Of a stretch of DNA of 37,917 nt, positions 3,622 to 23,350 are shown one piece after another; the first letter of the stretch is position 1; each line of letters starts with the position of its first letter. Under the pieces are notes generated by a model that was given only the letters and a program-made list of their open reading frames with translations, was not told where the DNA came from and searched no databases. The stretch is from a virus. Where the stretch lies: the IMG/VR virus record IMGVR_UViG_3300042309_000556, positions 1-37,917 of that record. One strand, 5' to 3'. A program made the position numbers and the translations under genes.

Positions 3622-3653
3622 ATGCTGACCGGGCAAGGCGCTGTTTCAACGGA
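3622..3653 (-). promoter_or_regulatory. putative late promoter, copy 1 (lysis)
   Basis: On the minus strand the box TCCGTTGA (3653-3646) contains a -35-like TTGAAA (3649-3644), followed after 16 bases by CAGCAT (3627-3622), a weak -10. The endolysin ATG begins six bases later, predicting a leaderless mRNA. It lies just behind a terminator. 17 of 18 bases (3636-3653) match the copy before the capsid gene. Three more copies occur before other late modules. Confidence 0.6.
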
Positions 3654-3654
3654 C

Positions 3655-3680
3655 AAAAAAGAACCCCGCCGAAGCGGGGT
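3655..3680 (-). terminator. rho-independent terminator after the moron genes
   Basis: The stem ACCCCGC / GCGGGGT with loop CGAA occupies 3663-3680. On the minus strand it is followed by a run of T (TTCTTTTTT), giving a strong intrinsic terminator seven bases past the stop of the gene ending at 3687. It closes the 4709-3687 unit and separates it from the lysis genes. Confidence 0.85.
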
Positions 3681-3686
3681 CTTTGT

Positions 3687-4349
3687 TCATTTCGCCGGAG
3701 CAGCCGGTGGCTGTGATGCACTCGGCGCTGGTGCTGGGCTTATTTGTATTGATGCTGCCGCGGGGCGGTCAGCGATTGCCTTCTGCACGGTGAAGTAAAG
3801 ACCGGAGAGCGCGATAACGGCGCCAAAGATCCAGGCCGCGAACTTGTACCCCATTGCCATCACATTTGTTCTGTTTTGCTCACCGGCAAGCTTGATCTCT
3901 GTCAGGACCGTACGTGATTCAGCCATCATCTTGTGCGCGTCGGCGTAAAACTTATCCGCGTTCGCTTGTGATATTTGACCAAGGACTTTGATTTGGGAAA
4001 GTCCTTCACGCAACTCGAAACGCAAACCCTCTGAATCGGCACGCATCGACTCAACGACAGTCGCGACCCGTGCCTCAGAAGCCTCAAGCCGCGCTTTGAC
4101 TTCTTCCCGATTCATTTCGCTCATGGCTTCAACTTGGGGCTTTGTCTCTGGCATTTCAACTGACTCTGCCAGAGTCTGGGTGACTGCGAAGGGGACTCGC
4201 TTCTGAACTTCCTCGCCGAATTCTTCACTAAACGCCAGAGACATAACGAGCGAACTGACGGGCGGCTCAGACATCTTTTGAATCCACACCTCTGTCTCTG
4301 GAGTCGCCGAGATCGCGCGAATCCGAGAAGTCCAATCTGCAGTAGCCAT
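3687..4349 (-). CDS. moron-like membrane protein with coiled coil (220 aa), unknown function
   Basis: 220 residues: an N-terminal soluble part (1-75), a long charged coiled-coil-like region (about 78-160), one transmembrane segment (about 169-188) and a Pro/Ala/Ser-rich tail (AAASIQISPAPAPS). No signal peptide is seen, so it is likely anchored with the N-terminal domain in the cytoplasm. It follows the gene at 4353 by three bases, with an AGGAATAA ribosome-binding site, and ends just before a terminator. The two genes form an independent unit within the late operon. I do not recognise a family. A lysogen-expressed role such as exclusion or host modification is inference. Confidence 0.72.
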   Translation of the reverse strand: MATADWTSRIRAISATPETEVWIQKMSEPPVSSLVMSLAFSEEFGEEVQKRVPFAVTQTLAESVEMPETKPQVEAMSEMNREEVKARLEASEARVATVVESMRADSEGLRFELREGLSQIKVLGQISQANADKFYADAHKMMAESRTVLTEIKLAGEQNRTNVMAMGYKFAAWIFGAVIALSGLYFTVQKAIADRPAAASIQISPAPAPSASQPPAAPAK

Positions 4350-4352
4350 CGG

Positions 4353-4709
4353 TTATTCCTGGCTGACAGGTTGAGCCTTTACCTCGGCCTTGGGAGAGAT
4401 CAGGCGGGCAAGATCCTTCAGTGCCGATTGCGTAAGGACCAAGGTGACAAAATCTTCCTTGACGATCGGAGAAGAAGTCTTCTCCACACCCTTCATAGCA
4501 AACCTTATCGACTCACCATCAGCACTATGTTCTTTGACCTCCATGAGTTCCACAGCCGGCGACATCAAGTCACGGTGCAGAGTCAAACGGAAAGTGCCGT
4601 CGGGCATCGGCCCCGCAAGGCTCGCTCCGCTTACGAACTCCACCCTGTAATCGTTGGCAATCTTGTGCTCGACGCGAAGCGTCGTTCCTACCTCTGGCAA
4701 ACCTGGCAT
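4353..4709 (-). CDS. moron-like soluble protein (118 aa), unknown function
   Basis: 118 residues from the ATG at 4709, chosen because it follows a very strong Shine-Dalgarno (GAAGGGGGAAGA); an open frame continues upstream to 4769 but lies over the promoter. The sequence looks like a small beta-rich domain followed by a C-terminal helix (VTLVLTQSALKDLARLI). The ending loosely recalls DUF3467-like proteins, but this is not a firm assignment. It is first gene of a two-gene unit with its own promoter and terminator. Confidence 0.7.
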   Translation of the reverse strand: MPGLPEVGTTLRVEHKIANDYRVEFVSGASLAGPMPDGTFRLTLHRDLMSPAVELMEVKEHSADGESIRFAMKGVEKTSSPIVKEDFVTLVLTQSALKDLARLISPKAEVKAQPVSQE

Positions 4710-4745
4710 TCTTCCCCCTTCTCGCTTCCTAGCGATCGAGCGCGG

Positions 4746-4791
4746 ATCATCCACCACCATAAATCTCACGTCAATGTGAGACTCATATAAG
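4746..4791. promoter_or_regulatory. divergent promoter region with an operator-like palindrome
   Basis: On the minus strand TTGACG (4774-4769) and GATGAT (4751-4746), spaced 17, make a good sigma-70 promoter for the 4709-3687 genes. On the plus strand TATAAG (4786-4791) is a possible -10 for the small gene at 4816, with no clear -35. A palindrome with arms TCTCAC and GTGAGA (4764-4781, six-base spacer) covers the minus-strand -35 and the area of the plus-strand promoter, so a dimeric regulator could control both. It differs from the CI/Cro operators of this phage. Confidence 0.6.
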
Positions 4792-4815
4792 CGAAACCGC
4801 TGCTAGGATTCGGCT

Positions 4816-4992
4816 ATGACCGACTGGCAGAAAACCGAGTACCCGCCGACCAAGTCCTTCAAGGAGATGGAGGCGGAGCGACTGACGAAGGGGGCCAAGA
4901 GCCCGATTCCGATGCTGGCTTTGATTGCCCTCATTTTCTGCGGTGCGATCGCCGCCTTTATTTGGGGCTTCTCTGGCTTTTTTGTTCGCTAA
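4816..4992 (+). CDS. small membrane protein (58 aa), divergent from the moron genes
   Basis: A 58-residue frame: ATG at 4816, TAA at 4992. A polar, charged N-terminus (MTDWQKTEYPPTKSF) is followed by one hydrophobic segment (about 33-53: MLALIALIFCGAIAAFIWGF) and a short basic end. A TAGGATT ribosome-binding site precedes the ATG. It is on the opposite strand from all neighbours; its last 35 bases overlap the 3' end of the ejection-protein gene. The plausible composition and single clean membrane span favour a real gene. Function is unknown; small phage membrane proteins of this type often act in exclusion. Confidence 0.55.
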   Translation: MTDWQKTEYPPTKSFKEMEAERLTKGAKSPIPMLALIALIFCGAIAAFIWGFSGFFVR

Positions 4993-7060
4993 TCTGCTGT
5001 TCGGCGAAGTCGCGGATCTCTCCGTCGCCCTCGTCATTCGCAATGTTGCGGAGTGCCTGCCAGGAAGCCATTACTGAGCCAACTGGCTTTGTCGTGGTAG
5101 AGGAAAGCCACTTCACCAGCCGAGGATTCGTCAAGAATCTCGCGGCCAGGTTTGCGCTACCGGCCCCACCCAACGACCCAAGAACGATTGCAGCAGCATG
5201 AGCGGGGTTGCCCATTGCAGCTGCTCCAACCGCACCGGCCACCGTGCCTGCTGTCTGGCCGATGAGAAACTCCTTCCTGGCCGTGCCTGACGGGTTGGCA
5301 AAGACCTTGGATCCAGACTTCACCGCATCTGCAGCGTCCGCGATCTTCTGCATGTCGGCACTGAAGCCTTTGCCATAGCGCCCGAACAAGGTGCTTTTGG
5401 CTTCCGGCGACACCGAGTTCCAGTTCGTCAGGAAGCGATCCATCGAGAAGACCGCGCCTTCCGCGTCCTGCTGGCCAGGCGTGGCGCGCCCCATACGGCG
5501 CAGGAAGGCGGAGGACAGTTCACGCTGCGAGTCTTCGGGGAGGCTGCGCATGACCTGGCGCAGCGTGGTGGCGCCGTCCTTGACGCCCGAGGTCGCGGCG
5601 GCAAAGACCTTTTCAGGCCCGCCGTTCTTCTCGATCACGTGGCTGATGTCGTCAAGGCGTTTGTTGCCGGCGGCGTAGTAAGCATTGGCCCTGTCGAAGG
5701 CTGAGCGTGCCTGGGGACCCGCCGTGTCGGCCGCAGTCTTGAGGTCGTCAGTCAGCGTGCCGTAGAGCCCCTTGAGCTGACGGGTGGGCTGGTCGCTCAT
5801 CAAGCCCGCATCCGAGATGGCCTCACCCACCTGAGACCGCAGGCGCGCCAAAGCCTCGTAAGGGATGTTGCCGTTGCCGGCCTGCACGTCAGCCTGAAGC
5901 GCTTCGGCGATCTTCGCGAGACGAGGATTGGACAGCAGCTCGGACGTTGCCGTGGCGCCTGCGATGGGCGTCGACTCCTTTTCCAGATAGGCCAAGGCGT
6001 TCGCGACCGGCACCGGCAGCTCGGCCGGGATCGAGTCGTCCAGTCGCTTGTAGAGCTGCCCGGAGCGATTGCGGAACTGCTCAATGAAGCCGCCAGGCCC
6101 TTCAATGCCCTGCACCACCGCCCGGCCCGCCTGCTCGGGCGTGACCGCCCTGCCGCGTGGCGACAGATCGCGGGCAACCTGATCGATCTGACCGCCGAAC
6201 TGACCGGCCTGCTGCTGGGCAAACTTGTCGATGCGACCGGCACCACCGGGCACACTGCCGAGGGTGCTTTCCAGAGCCTGCAGACCGCGGTTGCCAGTGA
6301 CTTGTCCCATAGACGGCGAGACGCCGGCCGCGTCGAATTGGCCCACTCGCTCAAGCATCTTCTCTGGACTGGCGCCACGGGCCGCACCACGGAGGGCCAT
6401 CTGCGGAAGCGACGCCAGAGCGCCTGGCGCCAGCCCACCGGCCAACGCAGCTGCGAGCTGTCCGCCCGCTCCTGCGCCACCCTCGCGAGCGAGTGACCCA
6501 GCTCCAGCGCCGGTCGCCGTGCTGACGGTCTGCAGCACAGGCTGCGCGGTCAGGAACTCGCCAAGGCTGGCCAGTGCGCCCGGAGCTTTTGCAGCAGCGG
6601 ACGCAAGACCGCCTGCACCCATCGTCAGGCCCGTCCCTGCCAGCGCCTCGCCGATGTCACCGATGATCCTCTCGCCGCTGGTCTGCGGCTTGGACAGGCC
6701 CAGTGTGTCGGCTAGGGAGGATGCCGCATCGCGATAGCTGGGCTGCTCACCTGGCACGAGATAGCGGTTCACCGCATCGCCGCCGAGTGCTCCGACCAGC
6801 CCGCCGGCACCCTGCAGAACAGAACGGAGGCCAGCGCCAAGACCCTGCAAGGCGGTGAGCGGCTGTTCTGGCGCCGGTGAGCCGGTAATCATCCGGGCGA
6901 AGTCGGAGTTGTTGGCTGCAGGTGCGGGCTCATCGTCCCATTTGACCTGGCTCAGATCGATAGGAGTTGCTACCTGACTTTCACGTTTTCCGCCAGGGAT
7001 CGTGATTTCAAGTGGCGTCTGCTCGTCATCCCAGACAACCTGAGAGGGATCAATCGGCAT
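4958..7060 (-). CDS. large ejection / internal virion protein (700 aa)
   Basis: 700 residues, Ala/Gly-rich with long amphipathic helices and hydrophobic glycine-rich patches (about 75-95, 140-210 and 610-650), as in podovirus proteins that leave the head with DNA and form a channel across the envelope. The N-terminus holds a duplicated motif: PIDPSQVVWDDE (2-13) and PIDLSQVKWDDE (33-44). It ends a run of four or five virion-protein genes after the tail-hub genes, the place of ejection genes in P22- and T7-like phages. Its start overlaps the previous gene by 11 bases. The ejection role is strong by position and composition; enzymatic activity is not evident. Confidence 0.78.
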   Translation of the reverse strand: MPIDPSQVVWDDEQTPLEITIPGGKRESQVATPIDLSQVKWDDEPAPAANNSDFARMITGSPAPEQPLTALQGLGAGLRSVLQGAGGLVGALGGDAVNRYLVPGEQPSYRDAASSLADTLGLSKPQTSGERIIGDIGEALAGTGLTMGAGGLASAAAKAPGALASLGEFLTAQPVLQTVSTATGAGAGSLAREGGAGAGGQLAAALAGGLAPGALASLPQMALRGAARGASPEKMLERVGQFDAAGVSPSMGQVTGNRGLQALESTLGSVPGGAGRIDKFAQQQAGQFGGQIDQVARDLSPRGRAVTPEQAGRAVVQGIEGPGGFIEQFRNRSGQLYKRLDDSIPAELPVPVANALAYLEKESTPIAGATATSELLSNPRLAKIAEALQADVQAGNGNIPYEALARLRSQVGEAISDAGLMSDQPTRQLKGLYGTLTDDLKTAADTAGPQARSAFDRANAYYAAGNKRLDDISHVIEKNGGPEKVFAAATSGVKDGATTLRQVMRSLPEDSQRELSSAFLRRMGRATPGQQDAEGAVFSMDRFLTNWNSVSPEAKSTLFGRYGKGFSADMQKIADAADAVKSGSKVFANPSGTARKEFLIGQTAGTVAGAVGAAAMGNPAHAAAIVLGSLGGAGSANLAARFLTNPRLVKWLSSTTTKPVGSVMASWQALRNIANDEGDGEIRDFAEQQISEQKSQRSPK

Positions 7061-8282
7061 ATTCGGTCGACCCGTCGGAATATTGAACGACCCGCCGGCC
7101 GTTCGCGGTGCCAGTTCTTACTTGCGCGCGCGGCGCCTGTCCGGCTACAGCAGCAGGCGTCGGCCGCGAAGGAACGCCGCCCTTCAGCGCGTCACTGAGG
7201 CTGCCACTGCCGAAGTCCTGCAAGCCCGTAGCCTCGCGCAACGCGTTGGCGTTGTAGCCCTGCGCCTGCCATGTACGTGCCTGCCGCTGGAGCGCCTGCT
7301 GAATCGTCTGAGCCTGGACGCCGAGGTTGGTGCGAATCGTCTCCGCCGACATGTTGGGGTTGATATCGGCCTTGTCGAAGGCGGCTTCTTCCCCCGGAGT
7401 CAGCGCGGCGCCGAACAGCTCGTTGCGCACGACATTCTTCTGGCGGTCGTAACGCTGCCACCAGTCTGCTTGTCCGGGAGTAGCGCCAGTCATCCCACCC
7501 TGCCAACCCATGCGGCCCAAGAGATTCTCAAGATCACCGCCGGTCCCGTTGCCAGCGAAGTCGCCTTGGAATGCGCTGATCAATGCATTGGTGTTTGCAA
7601 GCTTGTCAGCGTCGCTCGCTAGCTTGTTGATCGTTGGGGCGCTTAGCGGCTTTCCGTCGGAGGTTGTGGATGGCTTCCCGCCAGGATTCCACTGACCTGT
7701 CCGCTCAAGCGCGAATTGCAGCGCATCATTTCCGGTGCTCTGACGGGTACGAGCCGCAGACGCGTAGGAGTTCGCCGCGCTAGCCCGCGAGGCCGCTGCT
7801 TGCGCCGCATCGGTGGCGATCGCGGAACGGCCCTGCTCGGTCGTTGAAATACCCCCGCCACCCGGCAGCAGCCGGTTGTTGATCAGGTTCTGACCCTGTA
7901 CCGAAGCGAGCTCAACGGGGCCGTTGGCAACGCCCATCAGGTTCGCGTTGGCACCGCCCCAGTTACCAGCCAATGCATCGGCCACCGACGCGCCGCGGAA
8001 GCCCTGCTCCTGCACGTCGCCGGCATAGCCGCTGATCTTGGTCGGGTCAAAGCCGCCGCGCAGCGCAGTCGCCAGCAGATTCGCCTGCTCGGGCGCATAC
8101 CCAGCACCGGAGATTGAGGTCTGCAGCTGATCGCGCGCAACGCGCTCATCGGTCTCCTTCTGAGCCTGAGCCAGCAACAAGCCAAGGCGGGCCGCGTTTT
8201 CCTTGCCCTTCTGGTATGCCTGCGTACTGCCCTGGCCGCCACCCGCAAGCGCCGCGCCGAGATCACCCCATCCGCTTGCCAT
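7050..8282 (-). CDS. internal virion / ejection protein (410 aa)
   Basis: 410 residues from the ATG at 8282, which shares bases with the TAA of the previous gene (TAATG); an upstream extension to 8330 would overlap that gene and is rejected. The protein is rich in Ala, Gln, Gly and Asn, begins with an amphipathic, Gly-rich section and has helical middle and C-terminal parts without cysteines. There is no tape-measure, sheath or baseplate gene nearby, so an ejected core protein of a podovirus is the best reading. No specific homologue is named. Confidence 0.75.
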   Translation of the reverse strand: MASGWGDLGAALAGGGQGSTQAYQKGKENAARLGLLLAQAQKETDERVARDQLQTSISGAGYAPEQANLLATALRGGFDPTKISGYAGDVQEQGFRGASVADALAGNWGGANANLMGVANGPVELASVQGQNLINNRLLPGGGGISTTEQGRSAIATDAAQAAASRASAANSYASAARTRQSTGNDALQFALERTGQWNPGGKPSTTSDGKPLSAPTINKLASDADKLANTNALISAFQGDFAGNGTGGDLENLLGRMGWQGGMTGATPGQADWWQRYDRQKNVVRNELFGAALTPGEEAAFDKADINPNMSAETIRTNLGVQAQTIQQALQRQARTWQAQGYNANALREATGLQDFGSGSLSDALKGGVPSRPTPAAVAGQAPRAQVRTGTANGRRVVQYSDGSTEYAD

Positions 8283-8938
8283 TACGCTGCTCCCACCCAG
8301 TAAGGGCTGCTGGACCCGAATGCGCCCCATCCAGAGGCGCCTGTTGCCGCCGTTGTCCCAGCACTGCTAGCCAGGCCACCCGCGACACCTCCGAGCAGCT
8401 GTGAGCCAGCATCGATCCACGGGTTGCGCGTGATGCCGCGGAGCTTGAGCTGGGCCAGGAAATCGTCCCCCTGCGCCTGCCGACCGAGCAAGCCGAGATT
8501 GGAACCGAGTTGCGCACTCTCCAGCGCCTCGCGCTGACGCTGTTGGTTCGGCGCGTCGATGCGACTCATCAGATTGGCGATCTTGGAGCCGTAGTCGGCG
8601 ATACCCAGTGATGCGTCCGCGCCGGAGGTCTTGTAGGCGTTCGACGTGGCGCCGGCCTGCTGCAGACCAGCGGTTGCCGCACCTTGATTGGCACGCGTGG
8701 CCGTCAGGTACTGATCCAGCGTTGTCTGGCGTTCTCCATCGTCGTTCGATGCGGCGCGCTGTGCGATCGTCTGGTTGACCTGAGCATTGGCCTTGTCCTG
8801 ATTTGCCTGCTGCTGCCGGAGCTGAGCCGCAAGCTGGTTATCCTGGTGCTTGGCCGTCTGCTGGGTGTTGTAGTACTGGCCGCCGGCAGCAGCGGCGGCA
8901 GCGGCAAGCGCCAAGTAGGTTGAGGTCGCGTAGGCCAT
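8282..8938 (-). CDS. internal virion protein with hydrophobic N-terminus (218 aa)
   Basis: 218 residues. An N-terminal hydrophobic alanine run (about 7-18) is followed by a Gln/Asn/Ala-rich helical region (25-100) and a glycine-rich end. The layout (short membrane-active N-terminus plus long Gln-rich helix) recalls T7 gp14-type internal core proteins, an inference from architecture. It is joined to the GNAT-like gene before it by TAATG and to the next ejection gene by TAATG. Confidence 0.72.
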   Translation of the reverse strand: MAYATSTYLALAAAAAAAGGQYYNTQQTAKHQDNQLAAQLRQQQANQDKANAQVNQTIAQRAASNDDGERQTTLDQYLTATRANQGAATAGLQQAGATSNAYKTSGADASLGIADYGSKIANLMSRIDAPNQQRQREALESAQLGSNLGLLGRQAQGDDFLAQLKLRGITRNPWIDAGSQLLGGVAGGLASSAGTTAATGASGWGAFGSSSPYWVGAA

Positions 8939-9390
8939 TAGCTGAGGACCTTCATGAAGTGGCTGTCCGTGTGGACATAGCCCATGCGCTCGTAGAGGAT
9001 TCTTGCCTTGTCGGGGCTATTGGCCATCAGCGCCATGCGGATGACGTTGATGCCCTTGGCGCGGCACGCCTCTTCCATCTCGTGCAGCAACTCAGTAGCC
9101 AGGCCCAGGCCGCGAACCTCAGGATCCATCCACCACGCGATCTCGTTGGCGACCGTCACGTTGACGTTGAAGGTGAACGGCTCAAAGGAAAGGCTGACCA
9201 TGCCGCACACGCGACCTTCCACTTCCACCACTAGCAGCAGGAAATGATCCATCGTGACGATCGCCAAACCTGCCGCCGACTCTTTTGCCAGTGGCGCAAA
9301 GCCGGGATAGCTGGTTGTCGCGTAGAACTGCTCGGCCATTTCGACGATGCGCGGCACGTCCTCTCGGGTGGCGGGTCGGATCTTGGTCAC
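8938..9390 (-). CDS. GNAT-fold acetyltransferase-like protein in the ejection region (150 aa)
   Basis: 150 residues with a clear GNAT fold: N-terminal IRPATREDVPRIVEMAE, a strand block LLLVVEVEGRVCGMVSL, the acetyl-CoA motif RGLGLA (93-98, pattern R-x-x-G-x-A) followed by helix TELLHEMEEACR, and the final KARILYERMGY. A GTG start overlaps the upstream stop as GTGA. GNAT-like proteins in this position occur in podoviruses (T7 gp13-like internal proteins are related to the fold). It may be a true acetyltransferase, since the cofactor motif is intact, or a structural or assembly protein. Confidence 0.85.
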   Translation of the reverse strand: MTKIRPATREDVPRIVEMAEQFYATTSYPGFAPLAKESAAGLAIVTMDHFLLLVVEVEGRVCGMVSLSFEPFTFNVNVTVANEIAWWMDPEVRGLGLATELLHEMEEACRAKGINVIRMALMANSPDKARILYERMGYVHTDSHFMKVLS

Positions 9391-9998
9391 TTGCTTCCCC
9401 CGTAGCCGAAGCCGGGCGTGTAAAGCAGGTTGTAGACGTCGCGATAGCCGCGGTTCTGCGCAGCGTTGTTCTGGCTGGTGGTCCAGATGTTGGACAGGCC
9501 GGAAAACACGTCGCCAAGCGCATCGGCCTTCACCCCGGCGTTGCCCGAAGCGAGGTTGTTCCTGAGCGCCGATGCCGATTGGCTGGCGCTGGTGGTCATG
9601 TCCGCGCCCTGCTGGGCTTGGGCAATCAGGTTCAGGCGCGACTGCTCATCGGCAGATCGCAGGTCAGCGGCTGCACCCTGAGCCAAGCGATCTGCGTTCA
9701 GCACACCCTGCTGGTAGTTCTCACCCAACAGGCGGTTGGCGTCGATTGCCGCGGACCCACCTGTAAGTCCATTGCGTGCCAGGGCGAATTTTGTACTCCG
9801 ATCGGCGATCGTCTTCTGGCGGCCCAGTTCATTGCCGTAGTACTCCCGAGAGGCGCCAAGGAAGTCCTGGATGTCGGCCTCGCGCCTCGGGTTCGAATAG
9901 GCAGAATTGATCGCGCCGACTGATCGGTCGATCTGGCTCTGACTCCACGCTTGGTTCTGGGCCGCTTGCGTCTGCGCCTTGTTGCTCGGAGAGCCCAT
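9387..9998 (-). CDS. virion-associated hypothetical protein (203 aa)
   Basis: 203 residues, hydrophilic, rich in Gln, Asn, Ser and Ala, mostly helical, and ending with an aromatic Gly/Tyr tail (TPGFGYGG). No catalytic motif is recognised. It lies between two GNAT-fold genes and overlaps both in TGATG/GTGA fashion. Composition and place suggest another ejection or internal core protein. Confidence 0.7.
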   Translation of the reverse strand: MGSPSNKAQTQAAQNQAWSQSQIDRSVGAINSAYSNPRREADIQDFLGASREYYGNELGRQKTIADRSTKFALARNGLTGGSAAIDANRLLGENYQQGVLNADRLAQGAAADLRSADEQSRLNLIAQAQQGADMTTSASQSASALRNNLASGNAGVKADALGDVFSGLSNIWTTSQNNAAQNRGYRDVYNLLYTPGFGYGGSK

Positions 9999-10507
9999 CA
10001 GTCACCCCTCAGGCGCGCATAAAGCGCCACGTCTTGGCCGGCAGGCCCGTATCCCCGCATCACGCCTTCGGGGCTGAATCCCAAGGCCTTGTCGAACCAC
10101 GTCAGCGCAGCGCGGCGACTGGTCAAGCATTGGATCTGCAAGCGATGAGCGCCGATATCGAAGGCACGATCGGCCACCCAGCGGGATGCCTTGGTGATCG
10201 AGCGCCAATGACCGGCCCAGCCTTGTGCTGTACCCAGCATCCAGCTCTGCCAGACGCCCGGAGACACGTATTCGTAGCCGCCTGCAACAGCCGGATAGCC
10301 ATCTGCACCGACGACCGTCACTGAGCAAAGCCGCGGCGCGTCTCCAGCAGCATTGATGAAACGGCGTGCTGCCTGCCCAGGGTGATAGATCTGACCAGTC
10401 ATCACGGTGTACTGCTCCCGTTCTTCCTCGCGCATCTGGTGACACAGGTACACCAGATGATCCGGCTCGACCGGGACACAATTTGAAGGGAGCCGGGCAT
10501 CGACCAT
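9998..10507 (-). CDS. second GNAT-like internal virion protein (169 aa)
   Basis: 169 residues. The second half follows the GNAT pattern without a good acetyl-CoA loop: AVAGGYEYV, HWRSITKASRWVADRAFDIG, then HRLQIQCLTSRRAALTWFDKALGFSPEGVMRGYG, which matches the end of GNAT folds. T7 gp13-type proteins have a similar degenerate fold. The N-terminal 35 residues are different. The ATG has almost no Shine-Dalgarno and follows the second copy of the late-promoter box by 35 bases. Likely a structural or assembly derivative of an acetyltransferase. Confidence 0.72.
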   Translation of the reverse strand: MVDARLPSNCVPVEPDHLVYLCHQMREEEREQYTVMTGQIYHPGQAARRFINAAGDAPRLCSVTVVGADGYPAVAGGYEYVSPGVWQSWMLGTAQGWAGHWRSITKASRWVADRAFDIGAHRLQIQCLTSRRAALTWFDKALGFSPEGVMRGYGPAGQDVALYARLRGD

Positions 10508-10514
10508 GGGTCAA

Positions 10515-10546
10515 AGCGTGACAGTGGGCCGCGTTGATTCAACGGA
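10515..10546 (-). promoter_or_regulatory. putative late promoter, copy 2 (ejection genes)
   Basis: The minus strand has TCCGTTGA (10546-10539) with -35 TTGAAT (10542-10537), then 16 bases to CACGCT (10520-10515), a poor -10. The ATG at 10507 begins seven bases later. The box lies directly past the stop of the gene ending at 10548. It also forms a small palindrome GTTGATTCAAC. Weaker match than copies 1 and 3. Confidence 0.45.
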
Positions 10547-10547
10547 C

Positions 10548-11042
10548 TCACGACATGCCCCGGTTGTCATTGAGGTAGACGGTCATGGCGTTGAACTGCC
10601 ACTGGACAGAGCCGTCGTATGTCAGCTTGACGGACATCGATGGCGCCGAAAGCGGCATAGGGATCACCGTCCCTGGAACGGTGTCAGCCGGGATGATGTA
10701 GGGGTCCGTAAAGGCGCCCGTATTTGTCTGGTCGTATCCAATCTGCAGGTTCACATCGCCCTGCCCGACCATATCGACGCCGTAGACCATCTTGGTGACC
10801 CCTGGCTGTCCAAAATCCAACCACGGCCACTGAATTACCCCATCGAAGAGCGTGATCTCGCTGGGCGCGGTTTCGTCGCCAACGGCTTCATCGTCAATCC
10901 GATAGATGTAATCACCGGATCGGATGTAGAGCACGTCGCCCGCGATGGCCCAGTCATCTATCGCGAACGGAAACACGTATCGCGACCACGCCCCTACCGA
11001 GCCGATCCGAGACATGCTGTAGACGAACACCTGGGAGGCCAT
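10548..11042 (-). CDS. gp10-like packaged-DNA stabilisation protein, C-terminal part (164 aa)
   Basis: 164 residues from the ATG at 11042, which overlaps the TGA of the 829-aa gene (TGATG). It begins VFVYSMSRIGSVGAWSRYVFPF, the kind of segment that, in unsplit podovirus tail-hub/stabilisation proteins (P22 gp10 type), follows the 'YWLAF' strand found at residue 438 of the upstream gene. It continues with IDDEAVGDETAPSEITLFDG and ends in beta-strands. I read it as the natural C-terminus of a gp10-like protein cut off by an inserted module. It may be translated by reinitiation after the upstream gene. Confidence 0.7.
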   Translation of the reverse strand: MASQVFVYSMSRIGSVGAWSRYVFPFAIDDWAIAGDVLYIRSGDYIYRIDDEAVGDETAPSEITLFDGVIQWPWLDFGQPGVTKMVYGVDMVGQGDVNLQIGYDQTNTGAFTDPYIIPADTVPGTVIPMPLSAPSMSVKLTYDGSVQWQFNAMTVYLNDNRGMS

Positions 11043-15029: not shown

Positions 15030-15041
15030 CTCGCCTCCTAG

Positions 15042-15074
15042 AAAAACGGCCGGGCGAGTTGCCCCGTCCGGCCG
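15042..15074 (-). terminator. terminator-like hairpin between capsid and tail-adaptor genes
   Basis: The arms CGGCCGG (15047-15053) and CCGGCCG (15068-15074) are followed on the minus strand by TTTTTC. It lies after the gene ending at 15099 and just before the ribosome-binding site of the gp4-like gene, so it may set the ratio of capsid to tail transcripts. A second, weaker GC hairpin lies at 15078-15099. Confidence 0.65.
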
Positions 15075-15098
15075 CCAGTCCCGCCGCCAAGCGGGGAC

Positions 15099-15916: not shown

Positions 15917-15962
15917 TGCAGTTCTCCTAGCCGGGAGCACTCAGCTCCCGGCGTGTGGTGGA

Positions 15963-17024
15963 TCAGGCGATGGACATGACCGCGTTGGCGTTGCGCTTGT
16001 TGATCGTCAGACCGTAGTCCGAGGTCACAGCGAAGTAGTGCGTGTAGCGGTCGTACATGCGGGCCGGGGTGCGCTGCACCATCCAGCGGCCCTTGACCGG
16101 GCGCAGCTTGATGGTCTTGCTGTTGAGGAAGTAGGCGCGCTTCTTCCACGGGTAGGTAATCGCACCCAGCAGGTCGTCCAGCTTGTCGAAGGTCGGGTCC
16201 CACACGACCGGCACGCCCTTGAAGGACAGCTGTTTGGTCGACGGGTCAATGTTGACGCCGCCCATGCCGCCGCCGGCACCCATCTGGATCTGACGCTGTA
16301 CGACAGCCAGCGCGTCCTTCTGGAAGGCGTCATAGAAGGCCGAGCCCACCGGGATGAAGTCCGGGCGCATGCCGCCGTAGGTGGTGCACTGGCGCCACAG
16401 CACTTCCATGGCGGCAATCAGCGTGCCGGCGGTGCCGGTGTTGATCCCCATGTTGGCCCAGTTGCGCCAGTAGGTCGCCGCGGCCGCATCGATACCGCCG
16501 ATGGTGCCGATGGCCGGCGTGGTGCTGATCAGCGCATCCAGGCCCGGGACCGCCTTGGTGTTGGTCGAACCATCCAGATGGACTTCAACGTCCCAGTTTT
16601 CCTGGAAGCCGTCCTTCAGCGTGGCGCGATTCTCTTTGAGAATGTCCACGATCTGGATCTTCTCAGCGTCCGTCATGACGGCATTGCGGTCGTCGGTCAG
16701 GATGATGCCGTTATTGGAGAGCTCGGTTTCGTTGAGCGTGAAGCCGTCGTGCGCTTCGTAGTGCTGGAACGGCGCTTTGCGGACAGTGTCCTTGCGGTTG
16801 TAGGTGACCTGGTCGTCGCCGGTGTAGTTCTGGTAGTTCGAATCGTTGGTGTAGCGCACCTTCTCGTTGAAGATGCCGTTGCCGAACACCGATTCGGACT
16901 TGTTGGCAATAAGCCACGACGCCAGGGGGCGGTCGCTGGTGAACTGGTCGATGGGATCGCTGGTCGCGTAGGACTCCAGCTGGTAGCTGGCGCCACGCAG
17001 CAGCTGTGCAGTGGTCAAGGGCAT
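15963..17024 (-). CDS. major capsid protein (353 aa)
   Basis: 353 residues. It is preceded by a scaffold gene and has a length typical of HK97-fold capsid proteins of podoviruses related to Bordetella phage BPP-1. Segments such as YATSDPIDQF, VRYTNDSNYQNYTGDDQV, YGGMRPDFIPVGSAFYDAF, FKGVPVVWDPTFD and YFLNSKTIKLRPVKGRWM fit the E-loop, spine-helix and P-domain order. No protease motif is present, so cleavage is not predicted. Its leader is about 140-170 bases long, with a hairpin (17043-17073) and a weak ribosome-binding site. A late-promoter box lies at 17166-17197. Confidence 0.9.
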   Translation of the reverse strand: MPLTTAQLLRGASYQLESYATSDPIDQFTSDRPLASWLIANKSESVFGNGIFNEKVRYTNDSNYQNYTGDDQVTYNRKDTVRKAPFQHYEAHDGFTLNETELSNNGIILTDDRNAVMTDAEKIQIVDILKENRATLKDGFQENWDVEVHLDGSTNTKAVPGLDALISTTPAIGTIGGIDAAAATYWRNWANMGINTGTAGTLIAAMEVLWRQCTTYGGMRPDFIPVGSAFYDAFQKDALAVVQRQIQMGAGGGMGGVNIDPSTKQLSFKGVPVVWDPTFDKLDDLLGAITYPWKKRAYFLNSKTIKLRPVKGRWMVQRTPARMYDRYTHYFAVTSDYGLTINKRNANAVMSIA

Positions 17025-17042
17025 GGTCGTGTCTCGAATAGG

Positions 17043-17073
17043 GAAAGAGAGGCCGTGGGGCCTTGGGTCTTTC
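17043..17073 (-). promoter_or_regulatory. hairpin in the capsid mRNA leader
   Basis: An imperfect palindrome of 31 bases lies 19 bases before the capsid ATG: outer arms GAAAGA / TCTTTC and inner arms AGGCC / GGCCT. It has no T-run, so it is not a terminator. It could stabilise or control the capsid mRNA. Confidence 0.4.
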
Positions 17074-17165
17074 CGCGTTCGAGGGACGCGACATCCTCAT
17101 TTCAGCGCTACCGGTGGCGAACCCGGCTTACGTCACACGCGGTGTCGGCTGGTGCCGATGGGATG

Positions 17166-17197
17166 AGATTGCCTGCGCGAGGCGCTGTGTCAACGGA
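17166..17197 (-). promoter_or_regulatory. putative late promoter, copy 3 (capsid)
   Basis: TCCGTTGA (17197-17190) with a perfect -35 TTGACA (17193-17188), then 16 bases to CAATCT (17171-17166). Over 17180-17197 it matches the lysis copy in 17 of 18 bases. It directly follows a terminator and precedes the capsid gene with a leader of roughly 140 bases. Confidence 0.62.
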
Positions 17198-17208
17198 GAT
17201 TGCAGACA

Positions 17209-17233
17209 AGAAAAAGCCCGCGCGTGGCGGGCT
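17209..17233 (-). terminator. rho-independent terminator after the scaffold gene
   Basis: Stem AGCCCGC (17215-17221) and GCGGGCT (17227-17233) with a five-base loop; on the minus strand it is followed by TTTTTC. It ends the terminase-portal-scaffold transcript and is placed just ahead of the capsid promoter box. Confidence 0.85.
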
Positions 17234-17256
17234 CGTTCAACGTTGGAATCCAGCCG

Positions 17257-18294
17257 CTACACACCCCTGGCCCGGGCCAGGTCGACGCCCATGCTGAAAG
17301 CTTCAACGTCGTTCTTCGGCTTGGCCTGCATAGAGGGAGCGCCAGCGGCCCGGATCGGAGATGGCGTGGCAGGACGTGCCGGTGCAGGCGCGGCAATGGC
17401 TGGCAGGCGCGTGTAGGCATCTTGCACTGCCTGCGCCCATTGAGCTGGCGGGAGCGTCTTCTGGATCAGCTCCACGGCCGGCGCCAAGAACGGCATCTTC
17501 TGTGCAAACGCTGGATCTGACGTGCGCAGGCGGTTGCCCAGCAACACAACCTGCTGCATGCCAGTGTTGTAATCGGCCTCCTGCTGCTGGCGCTGCGTCT
17601 GTGTCTGGCTGTGCTCGGTGGCCAGGGCGCCACGCTGGCGGTGGGCAGCCAACTCTGAGGCAACCTCGCGCGTCAGGTCGCCCGAATCCACCTTGGCCTG
17701 CAAGTCGGCGTGCTTGGACAGTGGGTCAAAGCCTGGCGCCTCTTTTCCCAGCTTCTCGCCCAGCCACTGCAGCTCCTTCTGCATGATGCCGTAGGCCTGT
17801 TCCATCGCATCAGGGCTGCCGCTGTTCACGGCGCGCAGGTAGTTCAGGGCCGCGCCGAATTGCTCCGGGTTCGTGCCGGTGGACTGAATTGTCTGCTCCC
17901 ATTCCTCGGCCTTGGCCGCACGGGTGCGCAGCGGTTCGACCTCGGCGGCACGCTCGGTCAGCTCGCGAAAACGCTTCTGCGTCCGCTCGTTCGTGATGCC
18001 AAGCTCCTTGATCTCGGCCTCCACGTCCTTTGGCTTGTCGTCAGGCTTGGGATCCTCTACTGCGGGGCCTTCGGGCTTCGGGTCTACCTCTGGCGCCAGC
18101 TCGGCAGCCGGATCGCCCTCCGGAACAACGGGGGCTTCGGAATCGACAACAGCCTCCGCGGCAGTCGCTTCCTCCACGCCCTTGAGGAACGGGTCCTCGG
18201 GCGCGGCAAGCTCTGCTACAGGCGCATCAGCGGCCGGGGCCTCAACAGCCTCGACGGGCTGCTCAGTGGTGAGGTTTTCTTCAGTCGGGTCCAT
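17257..18294 (-). CDS. scaffolding protein (345 aa)
   Basis: 345 residues, highly acidic and Pro/Ala/Glu-rich in the first 95 (PVEAVEAPAADAPVAEL, DPKPEGPAVEDPKPDDKPKD), then helical, coiled-coil-rich (KRFRELTERAAEVEPL, QTQTQRQQQEADYNTG) with a basic/hydrophobic end. Such disordered acidic N-termini plus helical C-termini are typical of podovirus scaffolds that guide procapsid assembly. Place between portal and capsid confirms the role. Confidence 0.85.
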   Translation of the reverse strand: MDPTEENLTTEQPVEAVEAPAADAPVAELAAPEDPFLKGVEEATAAEAVVDSEAPVVPEGDPAAELAPEVDPKPEGPAVEDPKPDDKPKDVEAEIKELGITNERTQKRFRELTERAAEVEPLRTRAAKAEEWEQTIQSTGTNPEQFGAALNYLRAVNSGSPDAMEQAYGIMQKELQWLGEKLGKEAPGFDPLSKHADLQAKVDSGDLTREVASELAAHRQRGALATEHSQTQTQRQQQEADYNTGMQQVVLLGNRLRTSDPAFAQKMPFLAPAVELIQKTLPPAQWAQAVQDAYTRLPAIAAPAPARPATPSPIRAAGAPSMQAKPKNDVEAFSMGVDLARARGV

Positions 18295-18304
18295 ATGTGG
18301 TCTC

Positions 18305-20302
18305 TTAGGCGGCGGGCATGAGTTGAGGCGGTAGTTCTTGCGGAATCTGTTCGGGCATCACGCCCCGGGGCGGCAGCTGGGTTGGGTCGATCGGCGTCCC
18401 AGGCGCGACCTGCTGCACGGGAGGCGCGGCCGGAATGAATCGCTCCGGATCGATGCGCTCGCCTGTGCGTTCGAAGGTCTCCTTGACGAGCTCTGCCAGG
18501 GCGCGACCGACCTCCTGTGGCTGGGAGCCGAGGAACTGACCGATCGCCGGGATTGCTTCGCCGAGTTGCGGCAGCATCTGCACCCACTGCTGCATGCGTG
18601 CAGAGGTGTTCGGTTTGCCAGAGGACCCAGCGCGGATCTCGACGTTGACCAAGGATTGCAGGCTCTCAGGGCCAAGCTGCTGGGGCCAATAAGCCTCGGG
18701 TCCAGCCATGACCGCAGCCTCTTCTCCTGGAAGCTCCTGCAGCGACACCTCGGCCGTGTACTGCGCCAGGTCGCTCGACATGCCTTCCAGCCCATCACGG
18801 ATGTAGCCCAGGCGGCTTTCCGTGCCCTGGCTGGCGATCTCGGCCTCCGTCGCAGTCTTGGCGACGTTGATGCTAGAGGACAGCGCCTCTTGAATACCCC
18901 AGATCATCTCCAACTCGGCGCGGATCACGCCCGTGTCGTAGAGGGCTGCGTCGATCTGGTTGTACTGGATCGGGAACAGGACAGATTGCGATGCCTGCCC
19001 ATTGAGGTTCAGCCCAACCATCTCGCCCGTCGCGCCGGCTTCCATCTTCTTGGCCTCGTCCGGCTCCACTGCGCCGTTGTCGAAGCCCATCTTTGGAATG
19101 GCGCGCTTACGGTGCTCGCGATAGTTCGTGCGGATGCGGTTGTACTCGTCCAGCAGCGAACGCGACCGGCTGATGAGCGACTGAGGATGACGCTGACCGT
19201 CGACCCAGATCGGGGCGAACTGGAAGAACGGGTAGAACCGGGTTGTCGCCTCCCCCGGCGTGTAAGGAGCTCGCAGATACTTGTTGAGCCCCTCGGCCAC
19301 CGTGATGATGACATTGCTTTCCCGGTTCCAAAGCTCCCACACGCACAAGTGGGCAGCCGTTGAGTTCACCGCGCCAGTGCCGGAACGGAACGACTCGGCG
19401 TCATCGGCCGACGTACGCTCAAGCGGGTTGCTGCTCGGCGAGGTCATGTCCTCAGCCTTCACCGGGAAATACTGGCTTGCGCTGCCCAGGTCATCCGCAG
19501 CTTCCGGGAACTGCTCCTTGGCCTTCTCCAGCGTGATGAAAGACCGGTGCGCGATCCAGGGCGAGTTGAGGTAGTGCTTCAGGCTCGACACTTCAGTCGA
19601 CACCTGGATGTCCTCGGCCCGTACGAAGTCGATGAACATGCCACGGGACAGGACTGTCTCGACCTGGCTTTCGAGGCCAAGCAACTGCTGCTCGTACTCC
19701 GCACGCAGCGCATCCGGATCGACCGCGTCACCCTTGGCCATGTCCACTTCCATGCGCTGGATGCGCTGGATGTTGTCTTGCAGGTCCGAGATCTGCTGCT
19801 CGATCATCGGATCCCGCTCGGTGCGGTTGTGCCAGGCCGCCTTGATCCAGCCGATGCCGACCGAGAGGCCGGAGCGGACCATGTCATCCATCGCCAGCTT
19901 CAGCTTGCCCTTCTTCCACAGGCTGGCGATCACGATCTCCATCGTCTTGCCGAGCTGACGCGCCTGCTCCAATCGTGAGGGACCGCAGGAGGCTGCTGGC
20001 AGCACGTCCACGTCAGGGTCGCGGGCGTAGAGGAACCCGGTAAGAATGTCGACGTAGGTCCCGGCGATGTTCACGTAGACGTCGAACACGTCGGTGTTGG
20101 CCTGGCCGCGGCAGTAGGTCCGGTCCATCGCGTAGCCCTTGCGCGCCTCCTTGTCGAAGTCGCGGGCGTCCTTGATGGCCTTGAGCCACTTCCTACAGTC
20201 AGCTTCCTCGGCGAGCCGGGCCTGTTCTTCCACAGTCGCCTGCTGCTCGGCCAGTGCATCGGCGTCGATCGTCGACACCAGCACGTCGTCATTCGGGGTC
20301 AT
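18305..20302 (-). CDS. portal protein (665 aa)
   Basis: 665 residues, the size of P22-type portals (about 725). Typical parts are the helical start with acidic residues, ADCRKWLKAIKDARDFDKEARKGY, NTDVFDVYVNIAGTYVDIL, GIGWIKAAW, a helical insertion (about 165-215), YIRDGLEGMSSDLAQYTAEV and a Pro/Gln-rich C-terminal barrel-like tail. It overlaps the terminase stop by four bases. It forms the dodecameric ring for DNA entry and exit and docks the gp4-like adaptor. Confidence 0.9.
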   Translation of the reverse strand: MTPNDDVLVSTIDADALAEQQATVEEQARLAEEADCRKWLKAIKDARDFDKEARKGYAMDRTYCRGQANTDVFDVYVNIAGTYVDILTGFLYARDPDVDVLPAASCGPSRLEQARQLGKTMEIVIASLWKKGKLKLAMDDMVRSGLSVGIGWIKAAWHNRTERDPMIEQQISDLQDNIQRIQRMEVDMAKGDAVDPDALRAEYEQQLLGLESQVETVLSRGMFIDFVRAEDIQVSTEVSSLKHYLNSPWIAHRSFITLEKAKEQFPEAADDLGSASQYFPVKAEDMTSPSSNPLERTSADDAESFRSGTGAVNSTAAHLCVWELWNRESNVIITVAEGLNKYLRAPYTPGEATTRFYPFFQFAPIWVDGQRHPQSLISRSRSLLDEYNRIRTNYREHRKRAIPKMGFDNGAVEPDEAKKMEAGATGEMVGLNLNGQASQSVLFPIQYNQIDAALYDTGVIRAELEMIWGIQEALSSSINVAKTATEAEIASQGTESRLGYIRDGLEGMSSDLAQYTAEVSLQELPGEEAAVMAGPEAYWPQQLGPESLQSLVNVEIRAGSSGKPNTSARMQQWVQMLPQLGEAIPAIGQFLGSQPQEVGRALAELVKETFERTGERIDPERFIPAAPPVQQVAPGTPIDPTQLPPRGVMPEQIPQELPPQLMPAA

Positions 20303-21654
20303 AGCATCTCCCTACGCCGATTGGCGGGGTCGTTGTCTGGGTCGCGCGTCTCAAGCCAGTTCCTGGTGAACGGTTTGATGACTGCGGGGCGTTGATGGGC
20401 ACGCTCGCGGGCGCTGGCCACTGCGGGGAACATGGTGTGGATCCAGTAACCCAAGGCATCCGGCGGATGGTCGAACCCTGTGGTCTTGTCAGGCATTCCG
20501 TTGTCGTCGTACGCCTGCTTTTCCAACGCCTCGGCCAATTTGGGGCACTTGGCCACGTTGACCTTGAGACGGCGTTTGCCTCGGGCGTTGCACAGCATGG
20601 AGTTGACGCTGACCACTCGCGAGCGGATGGATGGGTTGGAAGGGTTCACACGGACGGTGATGTTCTTGGCCGCCCGCAGCAGCCCTAGGTCCGACACGCT
20701 GGCGTTGTTGGTATGGGTGTTCTTCCCGCTGGCATCGGGATGCACGATCAGGCGATGCTCGGGCCATTCCTCACGCAACGCATCAATCATGGCCGGGGTG
20801 TCACGGACGCCTGACAGCTCGGCCAGAACCATAGGCTCGCCATCGCGCACAACACCGACCTCGGCCGTCATGTTCAGGACGTTGAAGTCCATGCCCACAT
20901 ACAGATCCTCGCCCTCCTGGATCGTCGCAGCGGTGTTGTTGAGCTTGCGATTGAATGCGGGGTACACCGACCCAGAGGTCAGGTTGACGAACTCGCCGTC
21001 GATGTACGCCAGGACCAGCTGCTCGGGATACGTCTCGAACAGCGAGGAAATGTAATCCTCGGGCAGGTTGATCTCGTTATCGTAGGTGCTAGCCCGAACC
21101 ATTCCGTAAAGCGCAGCCTTCTCCGCACTTTGGCTCGGCACTTGGTGGAACTGCTCGTAGACGAAGTTGAACCCCTCTGGGGTGGTCGTTACATCGATGC
21201 CGTTCTGCAGGCCCAGCGACTTCACGCGCAAACGGGCAATGATCTTCCGCCACGCCTCGTGCGCCTTGCGCTTCTTCAGCGTGTCGATCTCATCGACCAG
21301 TGCCTTGCCGATCTTGAAGCCCACGATCGACGCGGGCTTCTCCATGGAACGGCAGATGATCGTGCTCCGGTAAGCCTTGCCGGAATACAGGTGGACTTCC
21401 TTGTTGGACTCGACGATCTGGGTCTTGAGGCCCCAGTCAAAGGCCACTTCCTCAATCGTCGGATAGAAAATGTCGCGGATCTGCGGATAGCTGGGCGCAA
21501 AGTAGCCCGCAGGAATACGCGGATGCTCCCAGGCGTGCTGGCACAGCGACCCGGATCCAACCCAGGTCTTGCCCGAGCCGAAGCCGCCCACGAACGCACG
21601 GAACTTGTGCGGCAGGGCCAAGAACGCTGCCTGTGGCTCGTTAAGCGTTGGCAT
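20299..21654 (-). CDS. terminase large subunit (451 aa)
   Basis: 451 residues with an ATPase and a nuclease domain. Walker A is GGFGSGKT (23-30), Walker B ALVDEID (118-124), coupling motif around TTTPEGFNF (156-164). The nuclease has acidic residues in VGMDFN (D255), HPDASG (D307) and GFDHPPDAL (D395, D399). It drives DNA packaging with the small subunit and portal. Its start overlaps the small-subunit gene by 14 bases. Confidence 0.95.
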   Translation of the reverse strand: MPTLNEPQAAFLALPHKFRAFVGGFGSGKTWVGSGSLCQHAWEHPRIPAGYFAPSYPQIRDIFYPTIEEVAFDWGLKTQIVESNKEVHLYSGKAYRSTIICRSMEKPASIVGFKIGKALVDEIDTLKKRKAHEAWRKIIARLRVKSLGLQNGIDVTTTPEGFNFVYEQFHQVPSQSAEKAALYGMVRASTYDNEINLPEDYISSLFETYPEQLVLAYIDGEFVNLTSGSVYPAFNRKLNNTAATIQEGEDLYVGMDFNVLNMTAEVGVVRDGEPMVLAELSGVRDTPAMIDALREEWPEHRLIVHPDASGKNTHTNNASVSDLGLLRAAKNITVRVNPSNPSIRSRVVSVNSMLCNARGKRRLKVNVAKCPKLAEALEKQAYDDNGMPDKTTGFDHPPDALGYWIHTMFPAVASARERAHQRPAVIKPFTRNWLETRDPDNDPANRRREML

Positions 21655-22096
21655 TCTTCCGCCCGCTCACGATGTTGACAGTGACTGCTGCCGGCGCCGG
21701 GCCGTCATCGTCCGAGCCTTCCGGCTTGTCTCGCCACAACTCGGGGCGGCGGTTCTTCAGCCAGAAGATGGCAGCGACGGCGCTCGGTTGCACCTTCTCT
21801 AGGTACTTGGCGTAAACCGGCTTGTCAGCGTTCGCGGGCATGAAGATCTTCACCGCGTCCTGGTCGTAACCCACCGCCATCTGATACAGGGACCGTTCCA
21901 CGCGATCATCGGCCGGAGCCTTGCCAGCCTTTAAGGCGTCGCAAAACCCTTCCTTCTCCCCCTGCCAGCGGTAAAGCGTGGCGATGTCCACCTCTAGGAA
22001 ATCGGCAATCTCCCGGTTGGTCAGGCCATGCTCGGCCAGCTTTCGCGCCTGTGACACGAACTCAGGCTTGAACTTTGAGGGGCGGCCGCCAGCCAT
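21641..22096 (-). CDS. terminase small subunit (151 aa)
   Basis: 151 residues. An N-terminal basic segment (GGRPSKFKPEFVSQARKLAE) leads into a helix-turn-helix (GLTNREIADFLEVDIATLYRWQ, about 24-46), then helices (VERSLYQMAVGYDQDAV) and AAIFWLKNRRPELWRDK, a pattern common to terminase small subunits of this type. It recognises the packaging site and recruits the large subunit. Joined by TGATG to the gene before it. Confidence 0.9.
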   Translation of the reverse strand: MAGGRPSKFKPEFVSQARKLAEHGLTNREIADFLEVDIATLYRWQGEKEGFCDALKAGKAPADDRVERSLYQMAVGYDQDAVKIFMPANADKPVYAKYLEKVQPSAVAAIFWLKNRRPELWRDKPEGSDDDGPAPAAVTVNIVSGRKNANA

Positions 22097-22428
22097 CAGG
22101 ATCCAGTCCCGAACTTGGCCTTCAGGCGCTTGTACTCAGACAACTCGCGTGCATTGGCCTTCTCCCACTTCTCCCGCGCCTCCACTTTCTCGCGGACGCC
22201 AAAGTTAGGCTCAACACACCTGATCCAGTCCAACTTGAGACAAGCAACCTTCCTAAATTCCACGTCAGTCCAACGGACGCTCTTCCCCTCAATTGGTGTT
22301 AGCACGACGTACGTCTGCGACGTATCCGTGCCCGTCTGCACATGCTCAACCTTGATCGCGCAAACCGAGTGCCTAACGATCCAGCGCTCATTCTCAGTAA
22401 CGGCTGCGGGGATCCTGTCGTCAGTCAC
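22096..22428 (-). CDS. hypothetical protein (110 aa)
   Basis: 110 residues, GTG start overlapping the upstream stop. A compact N-terminal part (VCAIKVEHVQTGTDTSQTYVV) of mixed strands is followed by a charged helix (REKVEAREKWEKANARELSEYKR). There is no motif I recognise. It precedes the terminase genes. Confidence 0.65.
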   Translation of the reverse strand: MTDDRIPAAVTENERWIVRHSVCAIKVEHVQTGTDTSQTYVVLTPIEGKSVRWTDVEFRKVACLKLDWIRCVEPNFGVREKVEAREKWEKANARELSEYKRLKAKFGTGS

Positions 22429-22913
22429 CGTCCACCCCCAATGAAGCGCCCGATCACACGGCCAAAGGTGTCGCCTAGCCTCACGGCTAGACCGCCACGA
22501 CGTGGCAAACCGCTCTCGGGCTGCCAGGGTTCTTCGACACTAGCCGGCTGGTCGTCCACGTATTGGCGCCCGGCGATGGCGCGCTCGATCTGAACATCAC
22601 TGAATCTGATAACGCGCTTCTTGCCTACGACCACCGGTTCGTCGGTGTGCCAAACCGGGGCGCATAACGGGATGCCAAACAGGAAGCACTCGCTGGACAA
22701 AATTCTCCTCTCGACTTCTTGAGGGTTTGGCACCCCGTCACGGAACCATCCCGTCATCACATGAGAGATGTTTCGCGCGTCGTCACGGTTGATGACAACC
22801 TCGGTGGCCGATTCGTTATAGGCGGCCATCAAATATCTGCGCTGCCGCTCGATCTGTCCCAACAGCCGATCACCCTCCTTCGCCTGCAGCGAACGCTGCA
22901 TGACCGCGCTCAC
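22425..22913 (-). CDS. hypothetical protein (162 aa)
   Basis: 162 residues, GTG start overlapping the upstream stop by four bases. Contains a helical N-terminus (QRRYLMAAYNESATEVVI), a central segment (HTDEPVVVGKKRVIRFSD) and a Gly/Arg-rich C-terminus (TFGRVIGRFIGGGR). No family is recognised. Lambdoid phages often keep a late antiterminator in this interval, but I see no zinc-finger or Q-like pattern here. Confidence 0.65.
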   Translation of the reverse strand: MSAVMQRSLQAKEGDRLLGQIERQRRYLMAAYNESATEVVINRDDARNISHVMTGWFRDGVPNPQEVERRILSSECFLFGIPLCAPVWHTDEPVVVGKKRVIRFSDVQIERAIAGRQYVDDQPASVEEPWQPESGLPRRGGLAVRLGDTFGRVIGRFIGGGR

Positions 22914-23350
22914 CCCTCCACCCCACGCACTGCCGCGTACAGGTGAGCATCGGTAACCAACCCGACGTCCACGAAGTGCTGCCGGAGGTCTTCGAAGATC
23001 TGCTCAGCGCTCGGGCACTTGGGGCGCTTGCCGTCTCGGGTCGACGCTGCGTACAGGCCGACGAACGAGCTGGGGCTGTCCTTGAGCATCGGACCGACGC
23101 AGATGCTTTGCTCGCTCAACACGAACACGCGGCCATCCCGATCGCCGAACAGGTAGCTGCCTACCTGGCGGTCGTATCGGTTGGCCTTGATCCTGTTGGC
23201 GGCGGCGGTGGCGATGGGCGTCAGGTCCTTCAAAGGGTCGGCTATCCCCAACGGCGCGGCCTCTCGCTCCGATTGCCGGGACGATGCGCGCCTCATGACC
23301 TGTATACCGACGCTGTCTGCTGTATCAACGGACTTCGCTAGATTGCCCAT
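22910..23350 (-). CDS. hypothetical protein (146 aa) with possible internal start at 23296
   Basis: 146 residues from the ATG at 23350, which has a GAGGAAT ribosome-binding site. A second in-frame ATG at 23296 would give 128 residues (MRRASSRQSER...) and lies just past the -10 of promoter copy 4, so a shorter leaderless product is possible. The C-terminal half (CPSAEQIFEDLRQHFVDVG) is helical. No family is recognised. It overlaps the neighbour upstream by 26 bases. Confidence 0.65.
   Translation of the reverse strand: MGNLAKSVDTADSVGIQVMRRASSRQSEREAAPLGIADPLKDLTPIATAAANRIKANRYDRQVGSYLFGDRDGRVFVLSEQSICVGPMLKDSPSSFVGLYAASTRDGKRPKCPSAEQIFEDLRQHFVDVGLVTDAHLYAAVRGVEG
23301..23332 (-). promoter_or_regulatory. 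putative late promoter, copy 4 (before terminase module)
   Basis: TCCGTTGA (23332-23325) with -35 TTGATA (23328-23323), 16 bases, and TATACA (23306-23301), the best -10 of the four copies. An ATG at 23296 follows four bases later. It lies in the overlap of two coding regions, so coding constraint also shapes it. It would head the packaging genes. Confidence 0.5.

Follow-up and report, generated by a model that had tools for sequence, protein, structure and literature searches.

A putative coordinated set of late promoters with an extended -35 element, shared by Stenotrophomonas/Xanthomonadaceae phages of an undescribed group

The four boxes and the genes downstream of them

The stretch of viral DNA analysed here (IMG/VR record IMGVR_UViG_3300042309_000556, positions 1-37,917; hereafter the window, 37,917 nucleotides) encodes on its minus strand a 172-residue endolysin read from an ATG at 3615 (3097-3615; phrog_90 endolysin, 1.4e-59), a 169-residue virion protein with weak similarity to internal virion proteins (9998-10507; phrog_308, 5.7e-5, and phrog_4177, 2.6e-11), the major capsid protein (15963-17024; phrog_9953, 1.1e-34), and the terminase genes (20299-22096), the small subunit at 21641-22096 and the large at 20299-21654 (phrog_309 and phrog_2, respectively). 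The octamer TCCGTTGA occurs exactly four times in the window, always on the minus strand. Copy 1, the putative lysis promoter (3622-3653, box 3646-3653), reads TCCGTTGAAA-N16-CAGCAT. Copy 2, the putative virion-gene promoter (10515-10546, box 10539-10546), reads TCCGTTGAAT-N16-CACGCT and has the ATG of the virion gene, at 10507, at offset +39 from the box. Copy 3, the putative capsid promoter (17166-17197, box 17190-17197), reads TCCGTTGACA-N16-CAATCT, and its predicted +1 is 17159. Copy 4, the putative first late promoter (23301-23332, box 23325-23332), reads TCCGTTGATA-N16-TATACA, has an ATG at 23296 at offset +36, and leads into small genes and then into terS and terL, which lie downstream of it.

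The -35 and -10 hexamers of copies 1 to 4 are thus TTGAAA/CAGCAT, TTGAAT/CACGCT, TTGACA/CAATCT and TTGATA/TATACA, each pair being separated by a 16-base gap. Position 2 of the -10 hexamer is A in all four, and position 6 is T in all except copy 4; copy 2 deviates in having C at position 3 and its ATG at +39, where relatives have +38. The layout is that of a sigma70-type promoter (a TTGACA-like -35, a TATAAT-like -10 whose second base is A and sixth base T, and a spacing of 16-18), within which this class has a spacer of 16 and a -10 that usually starts with C. Copies 1 and 3 are identical at 17 of 18 bases, and a terminator scan placed an intrinsic terminator directly upstream of each, at 3681-3662 and 17234-17214 on the minus strand, with the longest stems among the minus-strand terminators of the scan. 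The first-pass annotation of this DNA had described four minus-strand boxes with TTGANN, a 16-base gap and a weak -10 with A at position 2, two of them nearly identical and lying behind terminators, and had assigned them to lysis, ejection, capsid and packaging modules; all of this was confirmed, the module labels holding as endolysin, virion protein, capsid, and genes before terS/terL. Copy 4 differs from the rest in its setting: it lies inside coding sequence, within the open reading frame 22910-23350, its TGA is the stop codon of the open reading frame 23325-23525, and its +1 is ambiguous.

The simplest alternative is that the boxes arise by chance or as coding coincidences. Four occurrences of the bare octamer are only mildly surprising, since at least four were found in 2 of 100 shuffles of the window, and the strand bias of the octamer by itself was set aside as uninformative because codon bias dominates it. 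The longer pattern TCCGTTGA-N19-A-N3-T is present three times in the sense direction of the window and never in antisense; among 300 first-order Markov sequences it was absent from 296 and present once in each of the other four. Boxes found inside terL of relatives, which have a poor -10, were rejected as probable coding coincidences. Chance is nevertheless scarcely credible as an account of the four boxes, and is already refuted by the conservation, strand, spacing and position of the element in related phages that are described below.

The element in related phages

Searches with the terminase and capsid proteins returned 156 loci in viral contigs. The same queries found 11 loci in bacteria, in Stenotrophomonas, Luteibacter and [Pseudomonas] boreopolis, which identifies Xanthomonadaceae and their relatives as the hosts and many members of the group as prophages. 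Among 50,697 named phage records the capsid protein matched three, none of them above 30% identity, and no named phage matched the late region at the nucleotide level. On these comparisons the phages form an undescribed Stenotrophomonas/Xanthomonadaceae group sharing one conserved class of putative late promoter, which would provide a readable late-gene switch for a group whose capsid is no more than 30% identical to that of any named phage.

In the window together with 21 fetched records of the 22 relatives, the full motif occurs 53 times in the sense direction and never in antisense. Among the 22 relative records themselves, TCCGTTGA-N19-A-N3-T has 51 matches, confined to one strand in each record, and the backwards-pattern control has none. 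When all 1680 rearrangements of the eight letters were ranked in the window and the 21 records, TCCGTTGA came first with 53 occurrences, against 9 for the next; it is also unique in that a majority of its copies (61%, compared with 18% for the next word) have a -10 at the fixed spacing.

The first-pass annotation had proposed that the boxes are promoters, and that related phages should carry them at the same module borders. The relatives do keep box and -10 there: of 22 records, 20 have them at the capsid border and 15 at the virion-gene border, compared with 0.5-0.8% of random windows. The capsid box precedes the ATG by about 160-175 nt, in most cases immediately after a terminator, and is retained down to 48% capsid identity. 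Further sites in relatives precede the lysis genes, with the same CAGCAT -10 as copy 1, and the first late gene; the virion-gene promoter is absent from a distant group. The box is best described as an extended -35 whose first bases vary by lineage: two relatives lack the TCCG part altogether, and their capsid promoter keeps TTGAC-N16-CAnnnT with C at -36. Comparison thus defines the element, its spacing, its strand and its position, and the full predicted element is TCCG-TTGA(C/A)N, 16 bp, YAnnnT, 6 nt, A(+1). Judged from this conservation there is little doubt that the four boxes are promoters; they would form a coordinated late set, one for each late block.

Two contigs found beyond this group deserve mention. 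Contig L253, whose portal homologue is 35-52% identical, carries a pair of CCGTTGA promoter-like sites at 1085 and 3068 on the minus strand with an ATG at +38, and is perhaps an outlying member of the promoter system. The unrelated contig L233 has near-identical promoter-like sequences of the TCCGTTGA type, TCCGTTGATTACTTAATGTATGGGTACATAAT, repeated at 816, 3298, 3459 and 6273 on both strands. The other IMG/VR contigs examined from broader motif scans, where not already-known relatives, proved to be unrelated or to hold single chance matches.

Predicted start sites, leaderless messages and the capsid leader

Among 56 non-redundant sense sites the commonest offset of an ATG or GTG is +38 (16 sites), which puts the start codon 7 nt past the -10; in 11 antisense sites no start codon occupies this offset. 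Among the 29 sites that have A and T at the two conserved -10 positions, the base at -1 is C in 22 and that at +1 is A in 17. In 36 of 40 distinct loci the ATG of the virion gene has the +38 offset. A Shine-Dalgarno-like sequence precedes the leadered capsid gene in 19 of 22 records and the virion gene in 1 of 18. In most relatives, then, the virion-gene ATG falls exactly at the predicted +1 and has no Shine-Dalgarno sequence, and such messages are probably leaderless. As a feature of this promoter class leaderless initiation is highly probable, and for the virion gene a leaderless late mRNA is a strong prediction. In the window the offsets are +38 for the endolysin, so that the predicted +1 at 3615 is the A of its ATG, +39 for the virion gene and +36 for the in-frame ATG of 22910-23350; at each of these three copies the predicted +1 coincides with an ATG or lies beside it. 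A leaderless endolysin mRNA is likely in the window and in one relative (record G011), and a leaderless start at copy 4 is uncertain. Leaderless lysis messages would not be general, since in most relatives the predicted start of the lysis promoter leaves a short leader that includes a Shine-Dalgarno sequence.

The cI mRNA of phage lambda is leaderless, and the likeness between such systems and the present one is that the start codon stands at +1; here the genes are late phage genes, and the predicted start is coupled to a conserved extended -35. In leaderless mRNAs of the Deinococcus-Thermus group the -10 adjoins the start codon (PMC12340547). Several relatives (G014:36945, G016:37346, G028:36703 and G030:35149) have a second putative promoter of the same class (-10 TAGGGT), which precedes the lysis promoter by about 450-530 nt; in two of them its placement before a small open reading frame of 60-78 residues is again leaderless.

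The capsid gene is organised differently. Between the predicted +1 and the capsid ATG lies a putative structured 5' leader of about 135 nt (17025-17159, minus strand), whose first hairpin, UCGGC-acca-GCCGA, begins at +2. Every lineage conserves the leader, and the records that lack TCCG are no exception. RNAalifold predicted 14 pairs on the leader alignment, six of them changed on both sides. In each of the 43 leaders a stem starts between +1 and +4, and 12 different sequences form these stems. The stem is at least 5 bp long in 34 leaders, a count for which shuffles gave a mean of 3.3 and a maximum of 8. A hairpin beginning at +1 lends independent support to the predicted start site. An Rfam search with the leader gave no family match, and it is put forward as a candidate new leader RNA that might serve as a protective 5' hairpin or in translational control. 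Both the leaderless initiation predicted for late structural genes and lysis genes and the predicted folding of the capsid leader are directly testable in Stenotrophomonas lysogens.

These features also bear on the idea that the box is not a promoter -35 at all, and is instead the site of a Q-like or nut-like antitermination factor. In favour of this, two copies lie directly behind terminators. The fixed spacing to the -10, the C/A at -1/+1, the fixed offset of the start codon and the leader hairpin from +1 all point to initiation, however, and antitermination appears very improbable.

Specificity of the element and a candidate regulator

The reading we prefer takes the boxes to be extended -35 elements of one late promoter before each late block. 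Host RNA polymerase with sigma70 would read the TTGA and YAnnnT hexamers, and a phage factor supplied by early expression would read positions -39 to -36 (TCCG here), restricting the promoters to the late phase. Initiation would take place at the A 7 nt after the -10: for the virion gene and the endolysin this is the ATG or within a base of it, giving a leaderless messenger, and for the capsid gene the equivalent start would open the folded leader of about 135 nt with a Shine-Dalgarno sequence at its end. Taken as a whole, this explanation is a likely one.

The evidence for a dedicated factor comes from the base at -36. In record G013 it is A in all four promoters (first late, capsid, virion and lysis), and one set of relatives has the box CCATTGA at every promoter examined. 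Capsid and virion-gene promoters agree at -36 in 37 of 40 loci (G in 26, A in 9 and C in 2), an agreement with p<=5e-5 against shuffles that treat the loci as unrelated, whereas their ancestry is shared. Region 4.2 of RpoD is identical in ten hosts that carry G-, A- and C-type prophages. Flanks and spacers differ among the promoters within one genome, which makes copying between promoters unlikely. Given a concerted switch at -36 with identical host sigma70 region 4, a phage-encoded specificity factor is the best explanation, and on these comparisons we consider its existence rather probable. With at least three specificity types set against a constant host region 4, these phages would offer a natural system for the study of activator-promoter co-evolution.

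The main competing view is that these are ordinary sigma70 promoters, constitutive or repressor-controlled, in which TCCG would do no more than extend the -35 favourably upstream, with late timing following from readthrough, DNA copy number or the prophage repressor. The sigma70-like TTGA/YAnnnT core with its 16-bp spacing, kept even where TCCG is missing, speaks for it, and so does the outcome of profile searches for known regulators in 12 records. No sigma70 region 4 exceeded the curated Pfam cut-off (four weak sub-threshold helix-turn-helix-like matches were seen), no Ogr/Delta protein (PF04606) was found in these records with a search that recovered its E. coli control, and none matched PF06530, the one Q antiterminator family that was covered. 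A search for a phage RNA polymerase (PF00940) gave no match, its control being equally silent. Ordinary promoters, however, would hardly switch at -36 concertedly by phage lineage while host region 4.2 stays the same, and weak, short-spaced promoters would fit activation. Nor is the extension a host feature: in ten host genomes the motif has 13 matches, seven of them within these prophages, and the other six equal the six control matches. A host sigma regulon was ruled out on this ground. In 198 host-family genomes the version with an ATG at +38 has two matches, one in such a prophage and the other with an ATG that opens only 29 codons. Comparison thus establishes phage specificity and concerted drift as properties of the element, and ordinary promoters are an unlikely explanation, if the most serious of the alternatives.

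What the factor assumed in the preferred reading might be is the least certain part of the proposal. The candidate is a 146-residue orphan protein encoded at 22910-23350 on the minus strand, just upstream of the terminase genes and present in every relative compared. In a clustering of open reading frames from 22 genomes its family was the only non-structural late-strand family found in all 17 box-bearing records; it also occurs in both records without TCCG, and box copies lie at the start or the end of its gene. Outside the phage group homologues were found only in prophages of 2 of 198 host-family genomes, and none was found in named phages. An AlphaFold model is alpha/beta and confident (pLDDT 85), with a low-confidence N-terminus that bears a conserved PHRQxxR-like motif. 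A fold search with the model gave no match (best E 0.38 in the PDB and 0.18 among viral models in BFVD), and PDB sequence matches to designed Pizza propellers were dismissed as repeat artefacts. Since the protein has no recognisable DNA-binding domain, its identification with the phage factor is a possibility that we rate as doubtful; its presence in the two records without TCCG also counts against it. More tentative still is the fuller proposal that the family, unlike any solved fold, redirects the host sigma70 polymerase to a lineage-specific -36 base and drives leaderless late mRNAs, promoters and factor having drifted together.

The first-pass annotation had regarded a module-by-module promoter set as without parallel in lambda- and P22-type phages. 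Relative to those phages, whose late operon has a single Q-dependent promoter, the claim stands: several late promoters are predicted here, and no PF06530 antiterminator was found, although ninB- and RusA-type genes before the late genes, and the position of the 22910-23350 gene just before the terminase genes, are points of likeness. The layout in itself is not new, because P2 and the Stenotrophomonas phage Smp131 have late promoters set module by module under one activator (PMC3931495), and the late promoters lys, I, P and mom of Mu are activated by C (PMC4461284). The P2-type phages are temperate and resemble the present group in that each late operon has its own late promoter, four in all, served by one small phage activator. 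P2 uses TGT-N12-ACA, however, which does not occur in the 80 nt preceding any of the four boxes; in the present phages the box is contiguous and adjoins the -35, and no Ogr/Delta protein was found in the 12 records. In Mu, too, one transactivator serves several late promoters from a site adjoining the -35, but the Mu -35 is non-consensus whereas TTGA is strictly kept here, and the scans made of window proteins brought up no C homologue. The middle promoters of T4, where AsiA and MotA appropriate sigma (PMC7403470), share with our proposal a phage factor that alters -35 recognition and a -10 that remains sigma70-like; compared by promoter layout, the MotA box replaces the -35, whereas the present promoters keep the -35 core and lengthen it. 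What is new is the contiguous -39 to -30 box, its coupling to predicted leaderless starts and the concerted switch at -36.

A second possible regulator, a 117-residue helix-turn-helix protein, is encoded upstream of the replication genes (window 28856-29209, minus strand). It has a strongly similar counterpart in the distant group (G028 9931-10491), was not found in every relative, and is possibly a CII-like regulator.
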